Assembly (NCBI RefSeq): GCF_009650765.1
Contig: NZ_CP045740.1
Span: 7,726,001 to 7,790,000, forward strand
Length of the DNA: 64,000 bases
Direction of reading: 5' to 3'
From: Streptomyces sp. SUK 48
GTDB lineage: Bacteria; Actinomycetota; Actinomycetes; Streptomycetales; Streptomycetaceae
The position numbers and the translations under genes are program-made. Numbering within the stretch: position 1 is the first letter of the stretch; each line of letters starts with the position of its first letter. Below the pieces are notes generated by a model, which worked only from the letters and a program-made list of their open reading frames with translations, was not told the DNA's origin and did not search any database. Positions 37-60,661 of the stretch are shown here, piece after piece.

Positions 37-639
37 GTGCCCGGAGGCGTTCGGAACGGACTGATCATCTTCCTGAACGGGACGTCGAGTTCAGGCAAGT
101 CCAGCATCGCGAGGGAGCTGCTGGAGGTGATGGAGGAGCCGGGCTTCCATCTGCCGGTGGACGCCTTCCACGCGATGCGGACGCGCCGAAAGGTCGATCC
201 GGACGAGTTGCCCGGCATTCTGCGGCGCACCTGGGCGGGCTTTCACCGCGCGGTCGCCGGCATGGCCGCGGCCGGCAACCACGTCGTGGTCGATCATGTG
301 CTCAGCGAGGAATGGCGCCTGCTGGACTGCCTGGAGCTCTCCACCGCGAAAGACGTCGTCCTCGTCGGTGTGCGGTGCTCGCCGGAGGAACTCCACCGGC
401 GCGAACAGGCCCGCGGCGACCGCCCAAAGGGCCTGGCGGCACGGCAGTTGGAACTCGTCCACGCCCACGGCCGGTACGACATCGAATGCGACACCACCAC
501 GATGAGCCCCCGGGACTGCGCCCGCCGGATCAGCGCCTTCCTGTCCCGGCGCCCGACCCCGACGGCGTTCGAGCAGCTCCGCGCGGAACTGCGCCCCGAT
601 CTGACGGCTCCCGGTCCAGCGGCGATTGCGCTGCCCTGA
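37..639 (+). CDS. CPT-like P-loop phosphotransferase
   Basis: A 200-residue protein of the chloramphenicol-phosphotransferase-like kinase family, predicted to be soluble. A Walker A loop (GTSSSGKSS) sits at residues 15-23, and an acidic residue in LPVDAF (D42) occupies the place of the catalytic Asp of CPT. VVVDHV and the RGDR lid motif follow in the family order. It is a diverged paralogue of the protein at 1008-1541, and its C-terminus is about 20 residues longer than CPT. The GTG at 37 is the only good start near the Walker A segment; the ATG at 20 is out of frame. The real substrate is not determined by the sequence and could be another small alcohol or antibiotic. The family is confident, chloramphenicol as substrate is not. 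Confidence 0.8.
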   Translation: MPGGVRNGLIIFLNGTSSSGKSSIARELLEVMEEPGFHLPVDAFHAMRTRRKVDPDELPGILRRTWAGFHRAVAGMAAAGNHVVVDHVLSEEWRLLDCLELSTAKDVVLVGVRCSPEELHRREQARGDRPKGLAARQLELVHAHGRYDIECDTTTMSPRDCARRISAFLSRRPTPTAFEQLRAELRPDLTAPGPAAIALP

Positions 640-1007: not shown

Positions 1008-1541
1008 TCACCCGACCCGTGCGGCGATGGCCCGGGCGCACTCCACCGCCTCCGTGTGCGTGGTGTCGACTTCCAGGTCGTACGTCACGCCCCGGTGGAC
1101 CGCCGCCGCCTGAGTGGCCGCCATCCCCACGGCCCGGTCGCCCCGCGCGAGTTCACGGCCGGCGGCGACCGCGGCCTCGCAACGGACCCCCACCCACAGC
1201 ACCCGCAGCCCGTCGAGCGCCTTCTGCCATCGCTGCTGGGAGTACGGTCCGCCGAGGAAGACCTCGTCGACGACGATCCGCGCGCCCGCACGGGCCATCG
1301 CGGCGATCCCCTCGATCCACGCCGCCTCCAGCGCCCGGAACCCGGGCCCGACACCGACCTGTCCGTCGGCGGCGAACTCGATACCGGCGTCCGACGCCCG
1401 CATGGCCGGTGGCAGCGCCGCCACCATCGTGTCCGTCCCGAGCGCCAGCCAGGGATCCGGCAGGATCGCCTGGAGGCACCGGATGATCCCGGACTTGCCC
1501 GAGCTGGAACCGCCGTTGACCACGATCACCTGAGTCGTCAC
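1008..1541 (-). CDS. cpt: Chloramphenicol 3-O-phosphotransferase
   Basis: A 177-residue enzyme expected to transfer phosphate from ATP to the primary hydroxyl of chloramphenicol, inactivating it in the cytoplasm. The start [19 protein letters not shown] carries the Walker A loop at residues 10-17. D37 in LGTDTM matches the catalytic Asp37 of the Streptomyces venezuelae enzyme, which from memory is 178 residues long and similar throughout, including FRALE, DEVFLGG, LWVGVRC and [11 protein letters not shown]. The GTG at 1541 is chosen from this similarity. No good Shine-Dalgarno precedes it, but a TACTGT -10-like hexamer ends six bases before the GTG, so the mRNA may be leaderless. It lies just downstream of a tRNA-like element and a hairpin. 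Confidence 0.88.
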
Positions 1542-1613: not shown

Positions 1614-1709
1614 CGGAGAGGGCAGGATTTGAACCTGCGTGGGCCGCGAAGGGCCCGACCATGAGGCGTGGCTCGGTGGTCCCCGATAAGCCGCTCCGGG
1701 CACCTCTCC
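1614..1709 (-). tRNA. Serine-type tRNA-like element 1, abnormal anticodon arm
   Basis: On the minus strand this folds as a class II tRNA. It has a 7-bp acceptor (GGAGAGG/CCTCTCC), UG at 8-9, D-stem CCCG/CGGG, a 5-bp variable arm (GGGCC/GGCCC) and T-arm GCAGG-TTCAAAT-CCTGC, with G as discriminator; CCA is not encoded (CCC follows). The acceptor, G73 and long variable arm are serine-like. The anticodon arm is not normal: stem GACCA/TGGTC closes a 15-nt loop (CCGAGCCACGCCTCA) instead of 7 nt, and GAG/CTC inside it can form a further short helix. No U33-anticodon triplet can be assigned. It is 96 nt long and has its own downstream hairpin. It may be a pseudo-tRNA, or a structured RNA that is still aminoacylated. 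Confidence 0.7.
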
Positions 1710-1738
1710 CTGTTCCCGGCCCCGGGCGGTGCCCCGAA

Positions 1739-1774
1739 CCGTTCACAGGAGAGAGAGTGACACGGTCCGCTGAC
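1739..1774 (-). promoter_or_regulatory. Conserved upstream region of tRNA-like 1
   Basis: Read on the minus strand, the blocks GTCAGC, CGTGTCA and TGTGAACGG occur in this order upstream of tRNA-like element 1. The same three blocks occur in the same order upstream of element 2 (4234-4280). Their spacing differs by 13 nt at one junction. Conservation outside the mature RNA suggests a shared promoter or processing signal. Confidence 0.5.
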
Positions 1775-1816
1775 GTGGGACTGACGCGGCACCGGCGCTT
1801 CCGAGCCCCGCCCGGC

Positions 1817-3238
1817 CTATGACCGCGCACGCACCCCGTCGAGCAGCTCCAGCTCCCGAGGCGTGAACTGGGGCCCCTCCAACTGCGGCCGGAGCGGCCC
1901 CAGCAGAGCGGAGAGCAGCACGCCGGGGCGGACCAAGGACGTGGGCGGAGCTTGCAGCGTCAGCACGTCGGTCAGGGCCGTGGCCGTGCGGAAGGAGCCG
2001 GTCGCGGTGCGCGAGAGGCGGCTGACGTACCGCTGGAGCAGCCGGTCGGCGAAGTGGGGGTTCCTGCCGGTGGTCGTGGCGAAGTGGATGTCCTGCCCGA
2101 CGGTCAGCGCCCACGCCGCCTCGACCGGCCGTGCGATCGCCCGCTGGGCACGCCGGGACAATCCCGGGACCAGGCCGCCGCGGGCCAGGTCACGCAGCGC
2201 CAGCGCCCCCCGCGCGATCACCGAAAGGCCCTGCCCGTACACGGGATTGAAGGCCGCCACGGAGTCGCCCAGCGCCACCAGCCCGTCGGGCCAGGACGCG
2301 AGCCGCTCGTAGTAGTGGCGCCGGTTGGCCGTGCTGCGCGTGATGCTGACGTCCGTGAGCGGCTCGGCCAGTTCCAGCAGGTCGGCGATGACCGGGTGCC
2401 GCAGGGTGCGCGCGAAGGGCTCGAAGGCGTCCGCGTCCCGGGTGGGCCGCCCGCCGGGAGCGCCCATCAGGCTGACGTGCCAGCGGTCGCCCTCGATCGG
2501 CAGGATGCCGCCGGCCCTGGCGGGCTCGGGCAGCCGTGGGTCGGCGTTCACGCTGACCACCGGCCAGCCGCGGGTGGGCACGGGCGCGCGGTACATGCGG
2601 CTCGCGTAGACCAGGCCGGAGTCCACGCGGTCCTCGGCGAGTCCGCCGATGCCCAGCTCGGCGAGCCAGTGGGGCAGACGGGAGGCCCGGCCGGACGCGT
2701 CGATCACCAGATCGGCACGCAGTTCGCTCTCGTGCTCGCCCGCACCCTCGCCCGCGGTCCGGACGCGCACTCCGGTGACCCGTCGCCCGTCGCCGAGCAG
2801 CCCGACCGCCCTGGCCCGCGTACGGACGCTGACGTGAGGTTCCTTGAGCACCCGCTCCCTGATGACATGGTCCGTGAGGTCCCGGCTCGCGGTCAGCAGC
2901 CGGTGGGTGGCGCGCCGCCAGCGCCGGTACCAGCCCTCGGGCGAGTAGATGACCATGTTGGTGGTCACCGGTATGCGATGTGCCCCCGCGACCGCCAACT
3001 GGTCGACCACGCCGGGCAGCAACTCCTCCAGCGCGTCCACACCCCCGGACTGGAAGAGATGGATATGTACGGCCTGCGGGACGCCGACGCGCGGTTCCGG
3101 CCCCTCGGGAAGATCGCCGGACTCGATGATCTCCACCGATCCCACCTGGTCCTTGACGGCGGCCGCGGCGAGCATGCCGGCCATACTGCCCCCGATGACG
3201 ACGGCGCGGGCGGGGCGGTGCCGGATGGCTTCACTCAT
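1817..3238 (-). CDS. FAD-dependent monooxygenase or reductase
   Basis: A 473-residue flavoprotein of the group A hydroxylase / geranylgeranyl-reductase-like superfamily. The N-terminal dinucleotide-binding segment VVIGGSMAGMLAAAA is at residues 13-27, and the second FAD motif, LVALGDSVAAFNPVYGQG, at about residues 320-340 is well conserved. VIDASGR around residue 178 fits the middle motif. Start ATG at 3238. Its substrate cannot be read from sequence; relatives oxidise phenols, polyketides or isoprenoids. It is followed on the same strand by tRNA-like element 1 and preceded by the NTF2-like gene after a 228-nt gap with no clear gene. The 30-nt direct repeats in the two tRNA-like elements bracket it and the NTF2-like gene. 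Confidence 0.8.
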   Translation of the reverse strand: MSEAIRHRPARAVVIGGSMAGMLAAAAVKDQVGSVEIIESGDLPEGPEPRVGVPQAVHIHLFQSGGVDALEELLPGVVDQLAVAGAHRIPVTTNMVIYSPEGWYRRWRRATHRLLTASRDLTDHVIRERVLKEPHVSVRTRARAVGLLGDGRRVTGVRVRTAGEGAGEHESELRADLVIDASGRASRLPHWLAELGIGGLAEDRVDSGLVYASRMYRAPVPTRGWPVVSVNADPRLPEPARAGGILPIEGDRWHVSLMGAPGGRPTRDADAFEPFARTLRHPVIADLLELAEPLTDVSITRSTANRRHYYERLASWPDGLVALGDSVAAFNPVYGQGLSVIARGALALRDLARGGLVPGLSRRAQRAIARPVEAAWALTVGQDIHFATTTGRNPHFADRLLQRYVSRLSRTATGSFRTATALTDVLTLQAPPTSLVRPGVLLSALLGPLRPQLEGPQFTPRELELLDGVRARS

Positions 3239-3466
3239 GGTCGGCTGCTTTCTGCGGGGAGACGGGGGTGTGCGCGGAGATCTTGGACCACGGGCGAGCC
3301 GGGCGCGCGGGACAGCGGGACCAGGTCCTCGGCACGCCAGCCCGTCGGGCCGGGCGTGGCCGGCATCCGGCCGGGGTGGCGTACCGCCGCTCCAGGGTGC
3401 GGGCGACCGGATGACCGTTGCGGGCTACGACGGCCTACGGGCCGCCGTACCCCACCGAGCCCGCGT

Positions 3467-3853
3467 TCATACGCTGTCGGACGGGACGGGGGTGGCCTGG
3501 TGGTAGTACATCTGCCAGGTCCCGTCCGCGTCCCGCTTGCGCCAGAGCGAACTGCGCCGTGCCCGGTCGCCGTCCAGCGTGGTCTCGTAGGTGAGATGCA
3601 CCAGGCCGGGCGCCAGCAGGACACCGGCGAACTCCGAGGGCTCGTAGCGCGGGCCGCTCTCCGTGGCACCGTCCATCTCGGGCATCGCGGCCAGTATCTC
3701 GTCGTACGTCCACCGCCGCCCCGAAGAGCCGACCTCCACGAAGTCCGGGGCCAGCAGCTGCCGGGCGAGCGGGCGTGACACGCGCACGGTGGGATCCATC
3801 AGACGCAGTTCGCCCGCGATCGCCTGGTTTACCTCATCGACCTCTCGGCTCAT
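3467..3853 (-). CDS. NTF2-like / DUF4440 family protein
   Basis: A 128-residue soluble protein with the layout of SnoaL/NTF2-like cone-fold proteins: an N-terminal helix (EVDEVNQAIAGELRLMDP), the segment LLAPDFVEVGSSGRRW and a C-terminal strand pair ending WRKRDADGTWQMYYHQATP. The ending RDADGTWQMYYHQ is characteristic of DUF4440-type nuclear transport factor 2 family proteins. Such proteins bind small hydrophobic ligands or act as cyclases/isomerases, but many have no known activity, and none can be assigned here. It is upstream of and co-oriented with the FAD monooxygenase. Start ATG at 3853. Confidence 0.75.
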   Translation of the reverse strand: MSREVDEVNQAIAGELRLMDPTVRVSRPLARQLLAPDFVEVGSSGRRWTYDEILAAMPEMDGATESGPRYEPSEFAGVLLAPGLVHLTYETTLDGDRARRSSLWRKRDADGTWQMYYHQATPVPSDSV

Positions 3854-4086
3854 ACGGGCATCTTCGCGCAGGCGACCGGGCCCGTCGCACGCCGGGTCAC
3901 TGGGGCGACGGCCAGGCTTTCTTCCTCGCCGTTCAGGGCTTCTGATACGCCCTTACCTGTGAGGTAATCGCGCGGCTCGGCCGGGCGCGGCACAGTGGAG
4001 TCATCGGGTTCCGGGCCGGCGCACTCCGGCCCGGGACCCGATCCGATGTGTGCGGCGCGGGCGAGTCGAGCGGCGAAGAGCAGCGG

Positions 4087-4103
4087 GCCCCGGGCGGTGG
4101 GGC
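4087..4103 (-). terminator. Short hairpin after tRNA-like element 2
   Basis: GCCCC-gggcggt-GGGGC can form a 5-bp stem directly beyond the CCA end of tRNA-like element 2. It is weaker than the hairpin after element 1 but in the equivalent position. Confidence 0.35.
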
Positions 4104-4104
4104 G

Positions 4105-4202
4105 TGGCGGAGAGGGCAGGATGTGAACCTGCGTGGGCCCCGGGAGGCCCGACCTCGAGACATGCTCGCTGGTCCCCGATCAGCCACTCCGGGCACCTCT
4201 CC
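4105..4202 (-). tRNA. Serine-type tRNA-like element 2, abnormal anticodon arm
   Basis: A second class II tRNA-like fold with the same acceptor (GGAGAGG/CCTCTCC), G discriminator, an encoded CCA end, D-stem CCCG/CGGG, variable arm GGGCC/GGCCC and T-arm GCAGG-TTCACAT-CCTGC. The anticodon arm is again extended: GACC/GGTC, an A-A mismatch with a bulge, then a second helix CGAG/CTCG capped by the five bases CATGT. A 7-nt anticodon loop with U33 cannot be drawn. Acceptor, T-arm and variable-arm bases are nearly identical to element 1 (30 of 31 bases at the 3' end), while the anticodon arm differs yet keeps the extension. That pattern is unlike simple decay of a duplicate. Confidence 0.7.
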
Positions 4203-4233
4203 TCGTGTCCGGCGGCGGGTGCTCCGCCCGCCG

Positions 4234-4280
4234 CCGTTCACATGGAAGAGCGTGGCAGAGGGTGCTGACACGATGCTGAC
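4234..4280 (-). promoter_or_regulatory. Conserved upstream region of tRNA-like 2
   Basis: This carries the same GTCAGC, CGTGTCA and TGTGAACGG blocks (minus strand) as the region upstream of element 1, although the surrounding sequence has diverged. The rest of the 3854-4301 gap holds only this element and tRNA-like 2; I see no gene in it. Confidence 0.5.
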
Positions 4281-4301
4281 GCCCGCTGCCGGGGCGGGAG
4301 T

Positions 4302-5765
4302 TCACGCGTCGGCGAGCAGGGGGTCGTACGGCGTGGAGAGCCGGCGGCCGGACATGAAGGACAGGAAGTCCCGGACGAAGGCGCTGCGGGTGTAGACGGT
4401 GGTGCCGGTGTCGGCATCGCCGGTGGTGTCACGGTGGAACGCCGTGCGGAACAGAGCGCGGTACTCGGTCTCGTCGATGCGCTGGTCGCCGTCCTTGTCG
4501 GCGGTGTCGAAGAGGACTTCGGCGGTCCTGATCAGCGCGGGTGTGGCCAGGGAGGGCGCGGCCGCGGCGTACTCCTCGGCGCTGACGCGGCCGTCGCCGT
4601 CGGTGTCGAGAGCCGTCTGGAGCTCGCGCCACCAGTCGGCGAAGGCGTCGTAGAGCCGGTTCTCGGCGGCTTCGTCCAGGTCGAGCCGGCCGCACAACTC
4701 CCGTGCCATGGCGGCGAGATCGGGCCAGGTGAGGTATCCGTCGCCGGTCTGGTCGAGTACGTCGCGGAAGAACTCCTCCGCGCTGCGCTGTCCCGACGGT
4801 GGTGCCGCGGGGGCGGGCTGGAAGGACGTCGGGGTGATGAGGCGGAGCAGCGCGCCGGCCCGCCGCATCCGCTCGTGCAGCGCCGTGACGGTCCTGGCCC
4901 GGGGGTCGTCGCCGCCGGGGGAGAGGGCCAGCAGATCGGCGACGTTCTGGGCCCTGAGCCAGCCCTCGGGCAGGAAACGGGCCAGGTCGGCCGCCAGGTA
5001 GGCGCCCTGCATCAGGGCTCCCGCGCCGAGGACTTCCGGCAGGCCGGCCCGGCGGCGGAACGGTTCGGGGAGGGACGCCACCGTGATCGTTCCGATGGCG
5101 GGCCCGACGACGGCCCGGCCGAGTGCCCACAGGGTGGGAAGGCCGTGGAGCAGCGGGGGAGCGGGAAGGTGGTCGAAGAGCTTGTAGAGGATGATGCGCA
5201 TCGCCTCGGTGTTCTCCAGTTCCTCCTCCACCATGCGGTCGTAGTAGGACCAGAACTCCGTCAGTTTGGGAGGCAGTTGACCGGCCTCGTCGCCGAAGGC
5301 CGCGTGGTACGCCCGGAATTCGGTGTACAGCCGCTCCACCGCGCTCGGCGGCAGCGGCCGGCCGCTCAACCGGCACATGGTGACGGCGCTTTCGAACAGC
5401 GTCGCGACCACCCAGGCCCGTACGCCGGGGTCCATCGCGTCGTAGGGACGGTCGTTCGCGTCCCTGCCCGTCAGCCGTGTGTGCAGGCGATTGAGCCGCG
5501 CCGCCTCCTTGGCGCGCACCTCGTCGTCGGCGCCGAACATGCGCTGGAGGCTCAGGAACGTGTTGCGCAACCGGCGCCAAGGGTGGGTGACAAAAGTCGA
5601 GTTGTCGATCAGCGCGCCGCCGATCTGCGGATGCGCGGCCTCCAGCACGGTGGCCCGGACCAGGGCGAAGGCCCAGCGCGGGTCGTCGAAGAGCTCGTGG
5701 AACTGCGATCCCGGCCCGAACAGGGGCGGTTGTGCGGTGCCGTCGGCTGTGTTGCTCACGGTCAC
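4302..5765 (-). CDS. MpaB-family (DUF2236) oxygenase fused to EF-hand domain
   Basis: A 487-residue two-part protein. Residues about 25-310 match the DUF2236/MpaB family (FDDPRWAFALVRATVLEAAHP, then YDAMDPGVRAWVVATLFES). Members are heme oxygenases that cleave isoprenoid double bonds, such as Lcp on rubber and MpaB on a farnesyl chain. The C-terminal third carries calcium loops: DQTGDGYLTWPD at 338 (last position D rather than E), canonical DTDGDGRVSAEE at 387 and DKDGDQRIDETE at 423, and a degenerate fourth near 445, as in sarcoplasmic or calerythrin-like calcium proteins. Many homologues have WVHATL where this has WVVATL, so the likely axial heme His may be missing. Its ATG overlaps the prenyltransferase TGA by four bases (ATGA), implying coupled translation. 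Confidence 0.8.
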   Translation of the reverse strand: MTVSNTADGTAQPPLFGPGSQFHELFDDPRWAFALVRATVLEAAHPQIGGALIDNSTFVTHPWRRLRNTFLSLQRMFGADDEVRAKEAARLNRLHTRLTGRDANDRPYDAMDPGVRAWVVATLFESAVTMCRLSGRPLPPSAVERLYTEFRAYHAAFGDEAGQLPPKLTEFWSYYDRMVEEELENTEAMRIILYKLFDHLPAPPLLHGLPTLWALGRAVVGPAIGTITVASLPEPFRRRAGLPEVLGAGALMQGAYLAADLARFLPEGWLRAQNVADLLALSPGGDDPRARTVTALHERMRRAGALLRLITPTSFQPAPAAPPSGQRSAEEFFRDVLDQTGDGYLTWPDLAAMARELCGRLDLDEAAENRLYDAFADWWRELQTALDTDGDGRVSAEEYAAAAPSLATPALIRTAEVLFDTADKDGDQRIDETEYRALFRTAFHRDTTGDADTGTTVYTRSAFVRDFLSFMSGRRLSTPYDPLLADA

Positions 5766-6538
5766 GGTTCTCCGTTCTGCTTCGGCAGCGGGCCCAGGCC
5801 GCCGAACCGGCGCTGGCGCTGCTGATAGGTGTGCAGGCAGTCAAGGAAGTGCGGTGCGCGGAAGTCGGGCCACAGGACGGGCGGGAAGACCCATTCGGCG
5901 TAGGCGACCTGCCAGAGCATGAAGTTGGAGATGCGCTGTTCCCCCGAGGTACGGATGACCAGATCGACGTCCGGTGTGTCCGGGAAGGGCAGGTGAGCGG
6001 CGAAACTCTCCTCGGTCACGGCCTCGGCCGGTACCCCGCTGCGGATGAGGGATCGGGCCGCCGCCACGATGTCCCGGCGACCGCCGTGATCGAAGGCGAC
6101 GGTCAGGGTCATGCCCCGGTTCGTGCCGGTCAGGGTCGTCAGGTCGGCGAAGTCCTGGGTCAGCGCCGGGGGGATGCGCGGGTGGCTCACGCCGAGGAAA
6201 CGGCAGCGGATCCCCCGCGCCTGCAACAGCGGGGCGTGCTTGCGCACCGCGTGCCGTACCAGCCGCATGAGAAAGGTGACTTCGGCATCGGGCCGACGCC
6301 AGTTCTCCGTGGAGAACGCGTACAGGCTCAGCCACTCCACCCCGGCCGACCGCGCCGCCTCGATGACGTCGATCACCGTGCTCTCCGCGGCCCGGTGGCC
6401 TGCCGTACGCGGCAATGAACGCTGGGCCGCCCACCGGCCGTTCCCGTCCATCACGCACGCGACATGCCGAGGAACCGGACGCCTGCCGGAACCCTCGGGC
6501 GAGGAGCCCGCGCCCTCGACGGCCGACCGAGACGCCAT
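5762..6538 (-). CDS. cis-Prenyltransferase (UppS-like isoprenyl transferase)
   Basis: A 258-residue cis-prenyl diphosphate synthase that elongates an allylic diphosphate with isopentenyl diphosphate. The catalytic P-loop-like motif VACVMDGNGRWA is at about residues 26-37, with the essential Asp at 31. The family signatures SLYAFSTENWRRP and RTSGEQRISNFMLWQ are intact, as is YAEWVFPPVLWPDF at the end. The start at 6538 is chosen for the very strong GGGGGGAAGG upstream; a longer reading to 6607 has no such site. It is coupled to the MpaB/EF-hand gene, not to cell-wall genes. It is therefore probably an accessory enzyme rather than the housekeeping undecaprenyl synthase. Product chain length is unknown. 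Confidence 0.9.
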   Translation of the reverse strand: MASRSAVEGAGSSPEGSGRRPVPRHVACVMDGNGRWAAQRSLPRTAGHRAAESTVIDVIEAARSAGVEWLSLYAFSTENWRRPDAEVTFLMRLVRHAVRKHAPLLQARGIRCRFLGVSHPRIPPALTQDFADLTTLTGTNRGMTLTVAFDHGGRRDIVAAARSLIRSGVPAEAVTEESFAAHLPFPDTPDVDLVIRTSGEQRISNFMLWQVAYAEWVFPPVLWPDFRAPHFLDCLHTYQQRQRRFGGLGPLPKQNGEP

Positions 6539-7032
6539 GCCTTCCCCCCACCCCACGCGACACCGGCCGCCCACCACCCGGAAGCCGGCCTCCACCCCGT
6601 CACGCACCCGTCCCGACGTGTGCGTATGAGCTGATCACCACATGGAAGGTTGCCATCTCGCGCTCGCACACGGCGTGCTGGCGGAGGAGATTCACCCTTG
6701 GTGCGGGCGTTCGAGCCGGAGCCGTTCGACGTTACTTACCGAGCCCGTCCGCGGAGCCGGAGGATCAAGGAGGGCGGGACGGCGCCGGCCGCACAGCAGG
6801 GGGCGTCGACGGTGCGGTCCGCAGCAGGCCCACGGCATCGGCGGGGAGAGGGGGCGCACCCGGCCGGGGTGGCGCGCCGGGGGCGCACGCTCATCGGATC
6901 GGATGGATGTCCGGTGGATCGCCGGTCCTGACGGCCGGATGCGAAGTCTGCTGGAGGGGCGGGGCCGGCAGGCGGCCCCGGCTCTGTGGCGGTGGCCGCC
7001 GGATCAGGGCGGACACGGACGAAGGGATGACC
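6539..7032 (+). other. Intergenic region without recognised gene
   Basis: These 494 bases lie between the divergently oriented prenyltransferase and the broken gene at 7033. They must hold the promoter of the prenyltransferase operon. No convincing coding frame, tRNA or repeat was seen. GAAGGG at 7021-7026 serves as ribosome binding site for the next gene. Confidence 0.4.
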
Positions 7033-60210: not shown

Positions 60211-60439
60211 CGCCCTCGAACCAGGTGCGCGAAGCTAGCAGCCTCGCCCGGTCCCTGAGGGGTGTCCGCGACGGCCGACGCGGCTTCTCACGCCGTCGGT
60301 CCAGAACCGGGAACCAGGCCGCGGCTCGCGACGACTACCTGGGGATCGACGGGTCGCCCGTACCGGGAGACCGGATGTGATCTTGGATACCCGAGCGGAG
60401 CCGTGGTTGCGCGCAAGCGGGGGGACGGCTCTACGGTGG

Positions 60440-60618
60440 GCGGGCCGTGGTGTTCGGGAAGACCGGTGACAGCCCTCAGCGGGGCTCAGACCGGAGCGGC
60501 CCTCGCCACTGTGATCGGGGAGTGCCCGTCCCAGTTCTGCACGGTCACTGTTCGCCGCCCGGCGGACGGGAAGGCCGGGACGTACACGCGCGCACCCGTA
60601 AGCCAGGAGACCGGCCAC
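60440..60618 (+). ncRNA. Cobalamin riboswitch
   Basis: A B12 box, AAGCCAGGAGACCGGCC, lies at 60600-60616. Upstream in the expected order are GGGAAGACCGGTGACAGCCC (60457-60476), GCCACTGTGAT (60506-60516) and GGGAAGGCCGGGAC, the canonical core of adenosylcobalamin riboswitches. It ends 43 nt before the transporter start and should lower its expression when B12 is plentiful. Short frames within it are not real genes. The remaining 230 nt up to 60211 show nothing else. Confidence 0.88.
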
Positions 60619-60661
60619 GGCACTTCACGAGCTGATCCACGAGGTGCTGGAGCGTGACCGC

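Follow-up and report, generated by a model that had tools for sequence, protein, structure and literature searches.

What purpose could a transfer RNA (tRNA) gene serve once its anticodon loop has been replaced? The question is raised by two elements on the minus strand of a 64,000-nucleotide stretch of the Streptomyces sp. SUK 48 chromosome (NZ_CP045740.1, positions 7,726,001 to 7,790,000), called the window here. A first-pass annotation, made from the letters alone, described them as two serine-type tRNA-like genes with extended anticodon arms. Both are present, and sequence comparison establishes that they belong to an RNA family that has lost the decoding loop, keeps a conserved fold, has a genetic linkage and shares promoter repeats. 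We put the probability at about 0.8 that both encode a seryl-tRNA which does not decode and is dedicated to feeding VlmA-type transferases. Because a tRNA of the serine type without its code-reading part co-occurs, in azoxy clusters, with a serine-taking enzyme, the elements are probably dedicated serine carriers for natural products.

A serine tRNA body with a replaced anticodon arm

Copy 1 lies at window positions 1614-1709 (minus strand; G000:C1:7727614-7727709, where G000 is the host genome) and copy 2 at 4108-4202 (minus; G000:C1:7730108-7730202), with an encoded CCA at 4105-4107. The family covariance model R1 scores them at 104.4 bits (E 3.7e-16) and 110.6 bits (E 2.3e-17), respectively, both copies being in the seed of the model that scored them. 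Each has the acceptor stem GGAGAGG/CCTCTCC, G73, a 4-bp D-stem, a long variable arm and a 5-bp T-stem, whose loop reads TTCAAAT in copy 1 and TTCACAT in copy 2. The acceptor, G73, D-stem, variable arm and T-arm of the annotation are thus confirmed from the sequence, and with its 7-bp acceptor, G73, long variable arm and D and T arms the body has the traits of a canonical tRNA-Ser. The place of the anticodon arm is taken in copy 1 by 25 nt (1657-1681, minus) that fold into an outer helix GACCA/TGGTC, an inner helix GAG/CTC and the 6-nt loop CCACGC, and in copy 2 by 24 nt (4151-4174, minus) with outer GACC/GGTC, inner CGAG/CTCG and the 5-nt loop CATGT; the annotated arm lengths and second small helix were read correctly. 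ARAGORN called zero tRNAs in the window, and Rfam found no tRNA there reaching its gathering score, copy 1 giving a sub-threshold tRNA-Sec match (24.4 bits against a gathering score of 47).

The host chromosome (8,341,671 bp) holds 13 copies of the element at E <= 1.5e-19 by sequence search, so those of the window are not chance. R1, which was built from 29 copies in five genomes (33 of 34 initial matches were fetched and four exact duplicates dropped from the alignment), retrieves the same 13 at E <= 3.3e-13; the next match is tRNA-Tyr, at 41.5 bits. The general tRNA model RF00005 has 68 matches above its cut-off in this genome, and two of the 13 copies fall just below it (28.5-28.6 bits against 29).

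Across genomes, 217 elements were extracted (218 rows, one an empty parse), 187 of them distinct; a 77-nt short copy in locus L237 was set aside, leaving 186, of which 185 arms could be parsed and one did not fold. The terminal loops measure 3 nt in 30 arms, 4 nt in 94, 5 nt in 53, 6 nt in six, and 7 and 8 nt in one each, so that 183 of 185 have 3-6 nt. There are 17 GNRA and 16 UNCG loops, and loop sequence is not conserved. A 5-bp stem closing a 7-nt loop with U33, one mismatch allowed, can be formed in four of the 186 elements and in all four host tRNA-Ser; a canonical anticodon arm is absent from the other 182. These figures bear on the alternative of tRNAs that decode in spite of an unusual arm, such as frameshift or suppressor tRNAs. 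ARAGORN does assign anticodons to some family copies, but the calls are mutually inconsistent (Thr, Ala, Trp, Lys, Asp, Ile, Arg or unknown), and given the loop sizes, the unconserved loops and the rarity of canonical arms we grant this alternative next to no probability. That the element cannot decode, as the annotation had proposed, is well supported by the aligned copies.

The fold of the arm is kept by compensatory changes. In arms of 20, 21, 22, 23 and 24 nt (15, 10, 18, 22 and 52 distinct sequences) changes on both sides of a pair lie above all 500 shuffles, and in the variable arm 666 of 720 cells are paired, with 59 both-side changes that 0 of 500 shuffles reach; since the pairing structures for 20-22 nt were derived from the very sequences tested and those for 23-25 nt were set by hand, the paired percentages are biased towards them, and sequence kinship inflates the covariation tests. 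One of the two pairings tried for the 23-nt arms gave no signal, nor did the 25-nt arms (7 distinct), which are the length of copy 1. The covarying inner helix on which the annotation had staked its claim is therefore seen for arms of 20-24 nt and not for those of 25 nt.

The amino acid is suggested by the body. Among the nine host class II tRNAs scored with unfiltered R1, the highest value belongs to a tRNA-Ser: Ser(UGA) 47.5 bits, Ser(GGA) 42.3, Tyr 41.4, Ser(GCU) 40.8, Ser(CGA) 36.4 and Leu 25.8-29.4. Host tRNA-Tyr carries A73, the element G73. Tyrosyl-tRNA synthetase reads the anticodon; seryl-tRNA synthetase (SerRS) does not.

Copies across Streptomyces

The covariance search for Streptomyces homologues that the annotation had recommended places the family, at E <= 1e-4, in 51 genomes out of a Streptomyces sample of 392; copy numbers per genome are lower bounds in this search (10 candidates were scored in each, and the host gave 10 of its 13). 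A pattern scan of named genomes yields at least 120 stretches, and among the matches listed 102 are from Streptomyces, 13 from Kitasatospora and one each from Embleya, Streptantibioticus and Streptacidiphilus, with two lacking a genus. Copies are either single and dispersed or set in tandem arrays of two to four. Beyond the genus the model meets its ordinary relatives. An order-level search (E <= 0.001) gave many matches of about 42 bits, like host tRNA-Tyr, so only those at E <= 1e-8 were counted as family. A phylum sample searched at E <= 1e-6 gave matches in 57 of 391 genomes, two being Streptomyces with the true family and 55 lying outside the genus; all 18 loci fetched among these 55 are ordinary tRNA-Ser, a further sign of the serine type, and on these 18 we rejected candidate members in other orders. 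A phage origin was likewise discarded, as 50,697 phage records contain zero matches.

The element is found on 12 Streptomyces plasmid records. The 85-kb S. collinus plasmid pSCO1 (L442) carries a single copy, and no gene of azoxy type is annotated up to 6 kb away from it. In the host chromosome the copies at 1298k and 8233k (L012 and L019) have near-identical flanks on both sides, the mark of a recent duplication.

A multi-copy, dispersed element that is carried on plasmids and recently duplicated, as in the 1298k/8233k pair, might be taken for a decaying tRNA pseudogene or a functionless mobile repeat. We find this scarcely credible: the acceptor, G73 and T-arm are almost invariant across the family, the replaced arm and the variable arm show compensatory changes, promoters are conserved, and the family co-occurs with VlmA (see below). 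Moreover, for six of the 12 dispersed host copies, window copy 1 included, a counterpart with synteny on both sides exists among 205 elements of other records, so that at least those copies were inherited in place.

Linkage to VlmA-type transferases of azoxy clusters

In valanimycin biosynthesis, according to published work, VlmA condenses an N-hydroxylamine with seryl-tRNA, VlmO requires residues D51, H82, H110 and D114, and VlmJ and VlmK act later on the serine part (PMC9379638, PMC11705231, PMC12945691). A VlmA homologue (E <= 1e-40) is encoded in 80 of the 392 genomes, namely 49 of the 51 with the element and 31 of the 341 others, for a Fisher p of 1.8e-38 in a test that treats genomes as samples though they are not independent. 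In the remaining two element genomes, a VlmA-like gene with 40-41% identity stands some 2.5 kb away from the element, so that all 51 encode a VlmA-type enzyme. The element lies within 30 kb of the VlmA homologue on one contig in 42 of the 51 (tallied from coordinates), and in genomes G126, G137 and G218 the two are on separate draft contigs. A gene of the LPG_synthase_C family stands in 15 of 20 fetched element neighbourhoods (17 genomes), in 14 directly beside the element or elements and in one 9 kb off. Other neighbours recur and vary by locus: desaturase, KAS II, KAS III, ACP, flavin reductase, AurF-like oxygenase, aminotransferase, aldehyde dehydrogenase, DAGK, MmgE/PrpD proteins, SARP and a second SerRS. 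The clusters carry VlmA-, VlmB-, VlmO-, VlmR-, VlmJ- and VlmK-type genes, often with serS.

A quick tree of 82 VlmA sequences places the enzymes of element genomes together. The element label changes four times on it, compared with a mean of 25.5 after shuffling (0 of 500 as low). Of the 50 element-labelled rows, 49 fall in one group (SH-aLRT 97) together with three rows without the element, and the other 29 rows are without it; the fiftieth labelled row, G327b, is a second VlmA, and the other VlmA of that genome is in the group. A SerRS paralogue of at least 68% identity is found in 24 genomes, all of them element genomes, and among the 31 VlmA genomes without the element a paralogue (E <= 1e-100) occurs in one, G177.

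The host's own azoxy cluster spans about 2098560-2141827 and contains a VlmA homologue (2137510-2138385), an element (2138694-2138784), a SARP gene (2139161-2139871) and a SerRS gene (2131925-2133202; TIGR00414, 401.9 bits), as well as an amino-acid permease and a type I polyketide synthase. Genes of the VlmA, VlmB, VlmO, VlmR and VlmH types stand together there, VlmB being named through a relative's annotation; for VlmH we presume the assignment from weak acyl-CoA dehydrogenase matches. The four VlmO residues D51, H82, H110 and D114 are at identical numbers in the small protein of this cluster and in five others compared. In layout and place the cluster resembles the azoxyalkene KA57-A cluster reported for S. 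rochei, and our guess is that it is the same cluster.

Some further loci deserve mention. The same kind of cluster recurs on a Streptomyces plasmid, where its annotators list a DUF2156 protein, a "VlmB-like protein", serS and an AfsR/SARP regulator. An azoxy-type cluster with elements lies on a 149-kb linear Streptomyces plasmid (NZ_CP108456.1; L081, L082, L441). In the divergent clusters L318 (G192) and L319 (G324), the element and the VlmA-like gene of 40-41% identity are accompanied by SARP-, aminotransferase- and DAGK-like genes; these clusters perhaps make another azoxy-type product. Three loci (L325, L326 and L327) have a VlmA of the element clade and an azoxy-type cluster, with no element found.

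Charged donors might instead serve another acceptor, such as peptidoglycan or, by way of MprF-type enzymes, membrane lipids, and have only their regulation in common with the azoxy cluster. In favour of this, the host has four further, more remote hits to the VlmA-like query, at 24-27% identity and within long open frames. However, the association is with one VlmA clade and elements lie inside the azoxy cluster, and we regard this explanation as very unlikely.

Shared promoters and a putative regulon

Upstream of the elements, the common blocks noticed in the annotation prove to be a family trait. Copy 1 has two GTCAG units at 11-bp spacing (starts 1785 and 1774) and GTGAACGG at 1746-1739, all within a promoter region at 1739-1785 (minus); copy 2 has two such units at the same spacing (starts 4280 and 4269) and GTGAACGG in the region 4234-4280 (minus). 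The distance from the last GTCAG unit to TGAAC is 29 nt in both, as in most family members. Between promoter and element lie 5' leaders (1710-1738 and 4203-4233, both minus) that would be removed by RNase P, that of copy 2 containing a G+C-rich inverted repeat seen by eye.

For 209 of the 217 elements the full 150 upstream bases were available. RTCAG units at 11-bp spacing occur at least twice in 162 of them and at least three times in 119, and two or more units are met in 0 of 209 shuffled controls and in 4 of 209 on the reverse strand. The consensus of the 145 distinct upstreams with runs is GTCAG-N6-GTCAG-N6-GTCAG, followed by CTGnCA and GTGAACGG; TGA(A/C)C is present in 121 of these, and in 110 of the 121 its start lies 29 nt beyond the last unit. 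SARP activators recognise repeats at 11-bp spacing and, in the solved case, sit across the -35 region (PMC10936776). Both hallmarks of a SARP regulon are found here, with direct repeats 11 bp apart upstream of the elements and a SARP gene in the cluster. Of the 14 triple sites in the host genome (control 2), seven precede elements, the cluster's own among them, five more lie in the azoxy cluster and two stand elsewhere. Shorter repeat pairs precede further azoxy-cluster genes. With most triple sites placed either upstream of elements or within the azoxy cluster, the dispersed copies, including the two of the window, look like members of the cluster's regulon.

The dispersed host copies have no cluster-type neighbours beyond weak P450 and MFS similarities (Pfam names were assigned for window neighbours only), and their neighbours were dropped as a clue to function. 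This setting, and an arm whose sequence varies while its fold is kept, would also suit RNAs with a regulatory or sensing role, which would mimic a tRNA so as to bind SerRS or some other tRNA-binding protein, would thereby adjust serine charging or the expression of the cluster, and would not act as donors. A precedent exists in tRNA-Other, a Bacillus cereus pseudo-tRNA that is described as a tRNA-like element in a regulatory RNA (PMC3399842). Yet a mimic would not need an almost invariant acceptor, G73 and T-arm, and the linkage is to a clade of tRNA-dependent transferases and to a SerRS paralogue. We consider it unlikely.

A proposed insulated supply line for serine

The first-pass annotation had suggested aminoacyl donors or regulators. 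The first of these roles is the one favoured by comparative evidence, which points to the VlmA-type transferases of azoxy clusters as recipients; the annotation as a whole was partly supported. In the route that we propose for a dedicated seryl-tRNA, the SARP of the cluster would switch on the element copies, both in the cluster and dispersed. The RNA would be transcribed and matured, and SerRS, either the cluster's own or the housekeeping enzyme, would charge it with serine. As the element would be unreadable on the ribosome, the charged pool would be reserved for the VlmA-type enzyme, which would move serine onto a hydroxylamine en route to an azoxy natural product. The window's two copies and others dispersed along the chromosome would add to the supply. 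Transcription, SARP binding, charging, transfer and the hairpin's purpose as insulation from translation are the steps that we infer. More broadly, it seems likely, if less firmly than the carrier role itself, that this is a tRNA class wholly outside translation, in which an anticodon-less seryl-tRNA, a VlmA-type transferase and often a dedicated SerRS form an insulated supply line for a natural product, with at least 10 copies spread over the chromosome in some genomes, plasmid-borne copies in others and one SARP regulon.

Several findings weigh against a dedicated donor, in addition to the non-independence of genomes in the Fisher test. VlmA homologues without any element match are present in 31 genomes, so VlmA chemistry as such can dispense with the element; at 13 VlmA loci from these genomes (L320-L332) R1 stays at chance level (maximum 17.3 bits, E 1), ARAGORN calls none, and Rfam finds no tRNA-like RNA in L325-L327. 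The VlmA rows G361, G110a and G097 fall inside the element group, yet no element was found near them. In six element genomes (G033, G141, G170, G245, G310 and G326) none was seen near VlmA, in 3-20 kb around that gene and with about 10 candidates scored per genome. The SerRS paralogue is encoded in only 24 of the 51 element genomes at 68% identity or more, and in 29 at E <= 1e-100. As for the amino acid, host tRNA-Tyr nearly equals tRNA-Ser in R1 score and is the top non-family match in the filtered genome search, and a published proposal for azodyrecin has alanyl-tRNA and not seryl-tRNA as substrate of one VlmA homologue. Finally, the full triple site is missing at six of the 13 host copies, both window copies having a pair with the 29-nt spacing, and the dispersed copies, having no cluster-type neighbours, may function where they stand.

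If the proposal is true, enzymes of natural-product synthesis that depend on aminoacyl-tRNA could escape competition with the ribosome, some clusters bringing a decoding-stripped tRNA of their own. In genome sequences the element would also mark out one type of azoxy cluster, and its existence may explain tRNA genes that are called with inconsistent anticodons, as by ARAGORN here. SerRS, tRNA and transferase would then be a possible natural set.

Comparison with known tRNAs

The element has the likeness of a canonical bacterial class II tRNA-Ser in all the body traits listed above, and differs in having no anticodon loop, a capped variable hairpin, SARP-type promoter repeats and a link to VlmA-type clusters. 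Kinship with allo-tRNAs, which the annotation had considered, was abandoned. Allo-tRNA and tRNA-Sec also combine unusual arms with a long variable arm, and copy 1 has its weak Rfam match to tRNA-Sec, but the acceptor stems described for them are longer (PMC7609411), whereas the acceptor/T branch of the element is 7+5 bp and its anticodon loop is missing. The element fits none of the families tested: it fails as a decoding tRNA-Ser, as an allo-tRNA by its acceptor, and at every Rfam cut-off.

Staphylococcal tRNA-Gly is a non-translational tRNA of peptidoglycan synthesis, and the donor tRNAs of that pathway keep their anticodon arm and feed Fem-type enzymes. Like this class (PMC3399842), the element would be a tRNA specialised as an amino-acid donor outside translation; unlike it, the element is of the serine type, is linked to a VlmA-type enzyme and has lost the anticodon arm. 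Similarly, tRNA-Other of Bacillus cereus is a tRNA-like RNA outside translation that is linked to antibiotic phenotypes, but it has a Trp anticodon, is poorly aminoacylated and sits within a longer iron-regulated RNA, in another taxon and with other partners (PMC3399842). By analogy, its way of working is probably that of the donor tRNAs which serve cell-wall synthesis outside translation, and the genetic link expected of a donor, to a tRNA-dependent non-ribosomal transferase, is found (VlmA-type, in 49 of 51 genomes and by a weaker match in 2 of 51).

A last comparison, to which VlmL belongs, is with the valanimycin/azoxy pathway. There too a VlmA-type transferase uses seryl-tRNA; the difference is that the accessible parts of these papers describe no special tRNA (PMC9379638, PMC11705231, PMC12945691), whereas here the cluster would supply its own. 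In the open-access literature, of which coverage was partial and from which subscription papers and preprints are excluded, no description of a tRNA like this one in an azoxy cluster was found.

Other features of the window

Near copy 1, a pair of chloramphenicol-phosphotransferase-like (CPT) genes is recognised by Pfam at 37-639 (plus) and 1008-1541 (minus). Around copy 2, positions 1817-6607 (minus) encode consecutively an FAD enzyme, a DUF4440 protein, a protein that combines an mpaB/rubber-oxygenase domain and EF hands, and a cis-prenyltransferase; these genes may form a small terpenoid cluster. At the far end of the window, a cobalamin riboswitch is found at 60431-60633 (plus; 64.3 bits).

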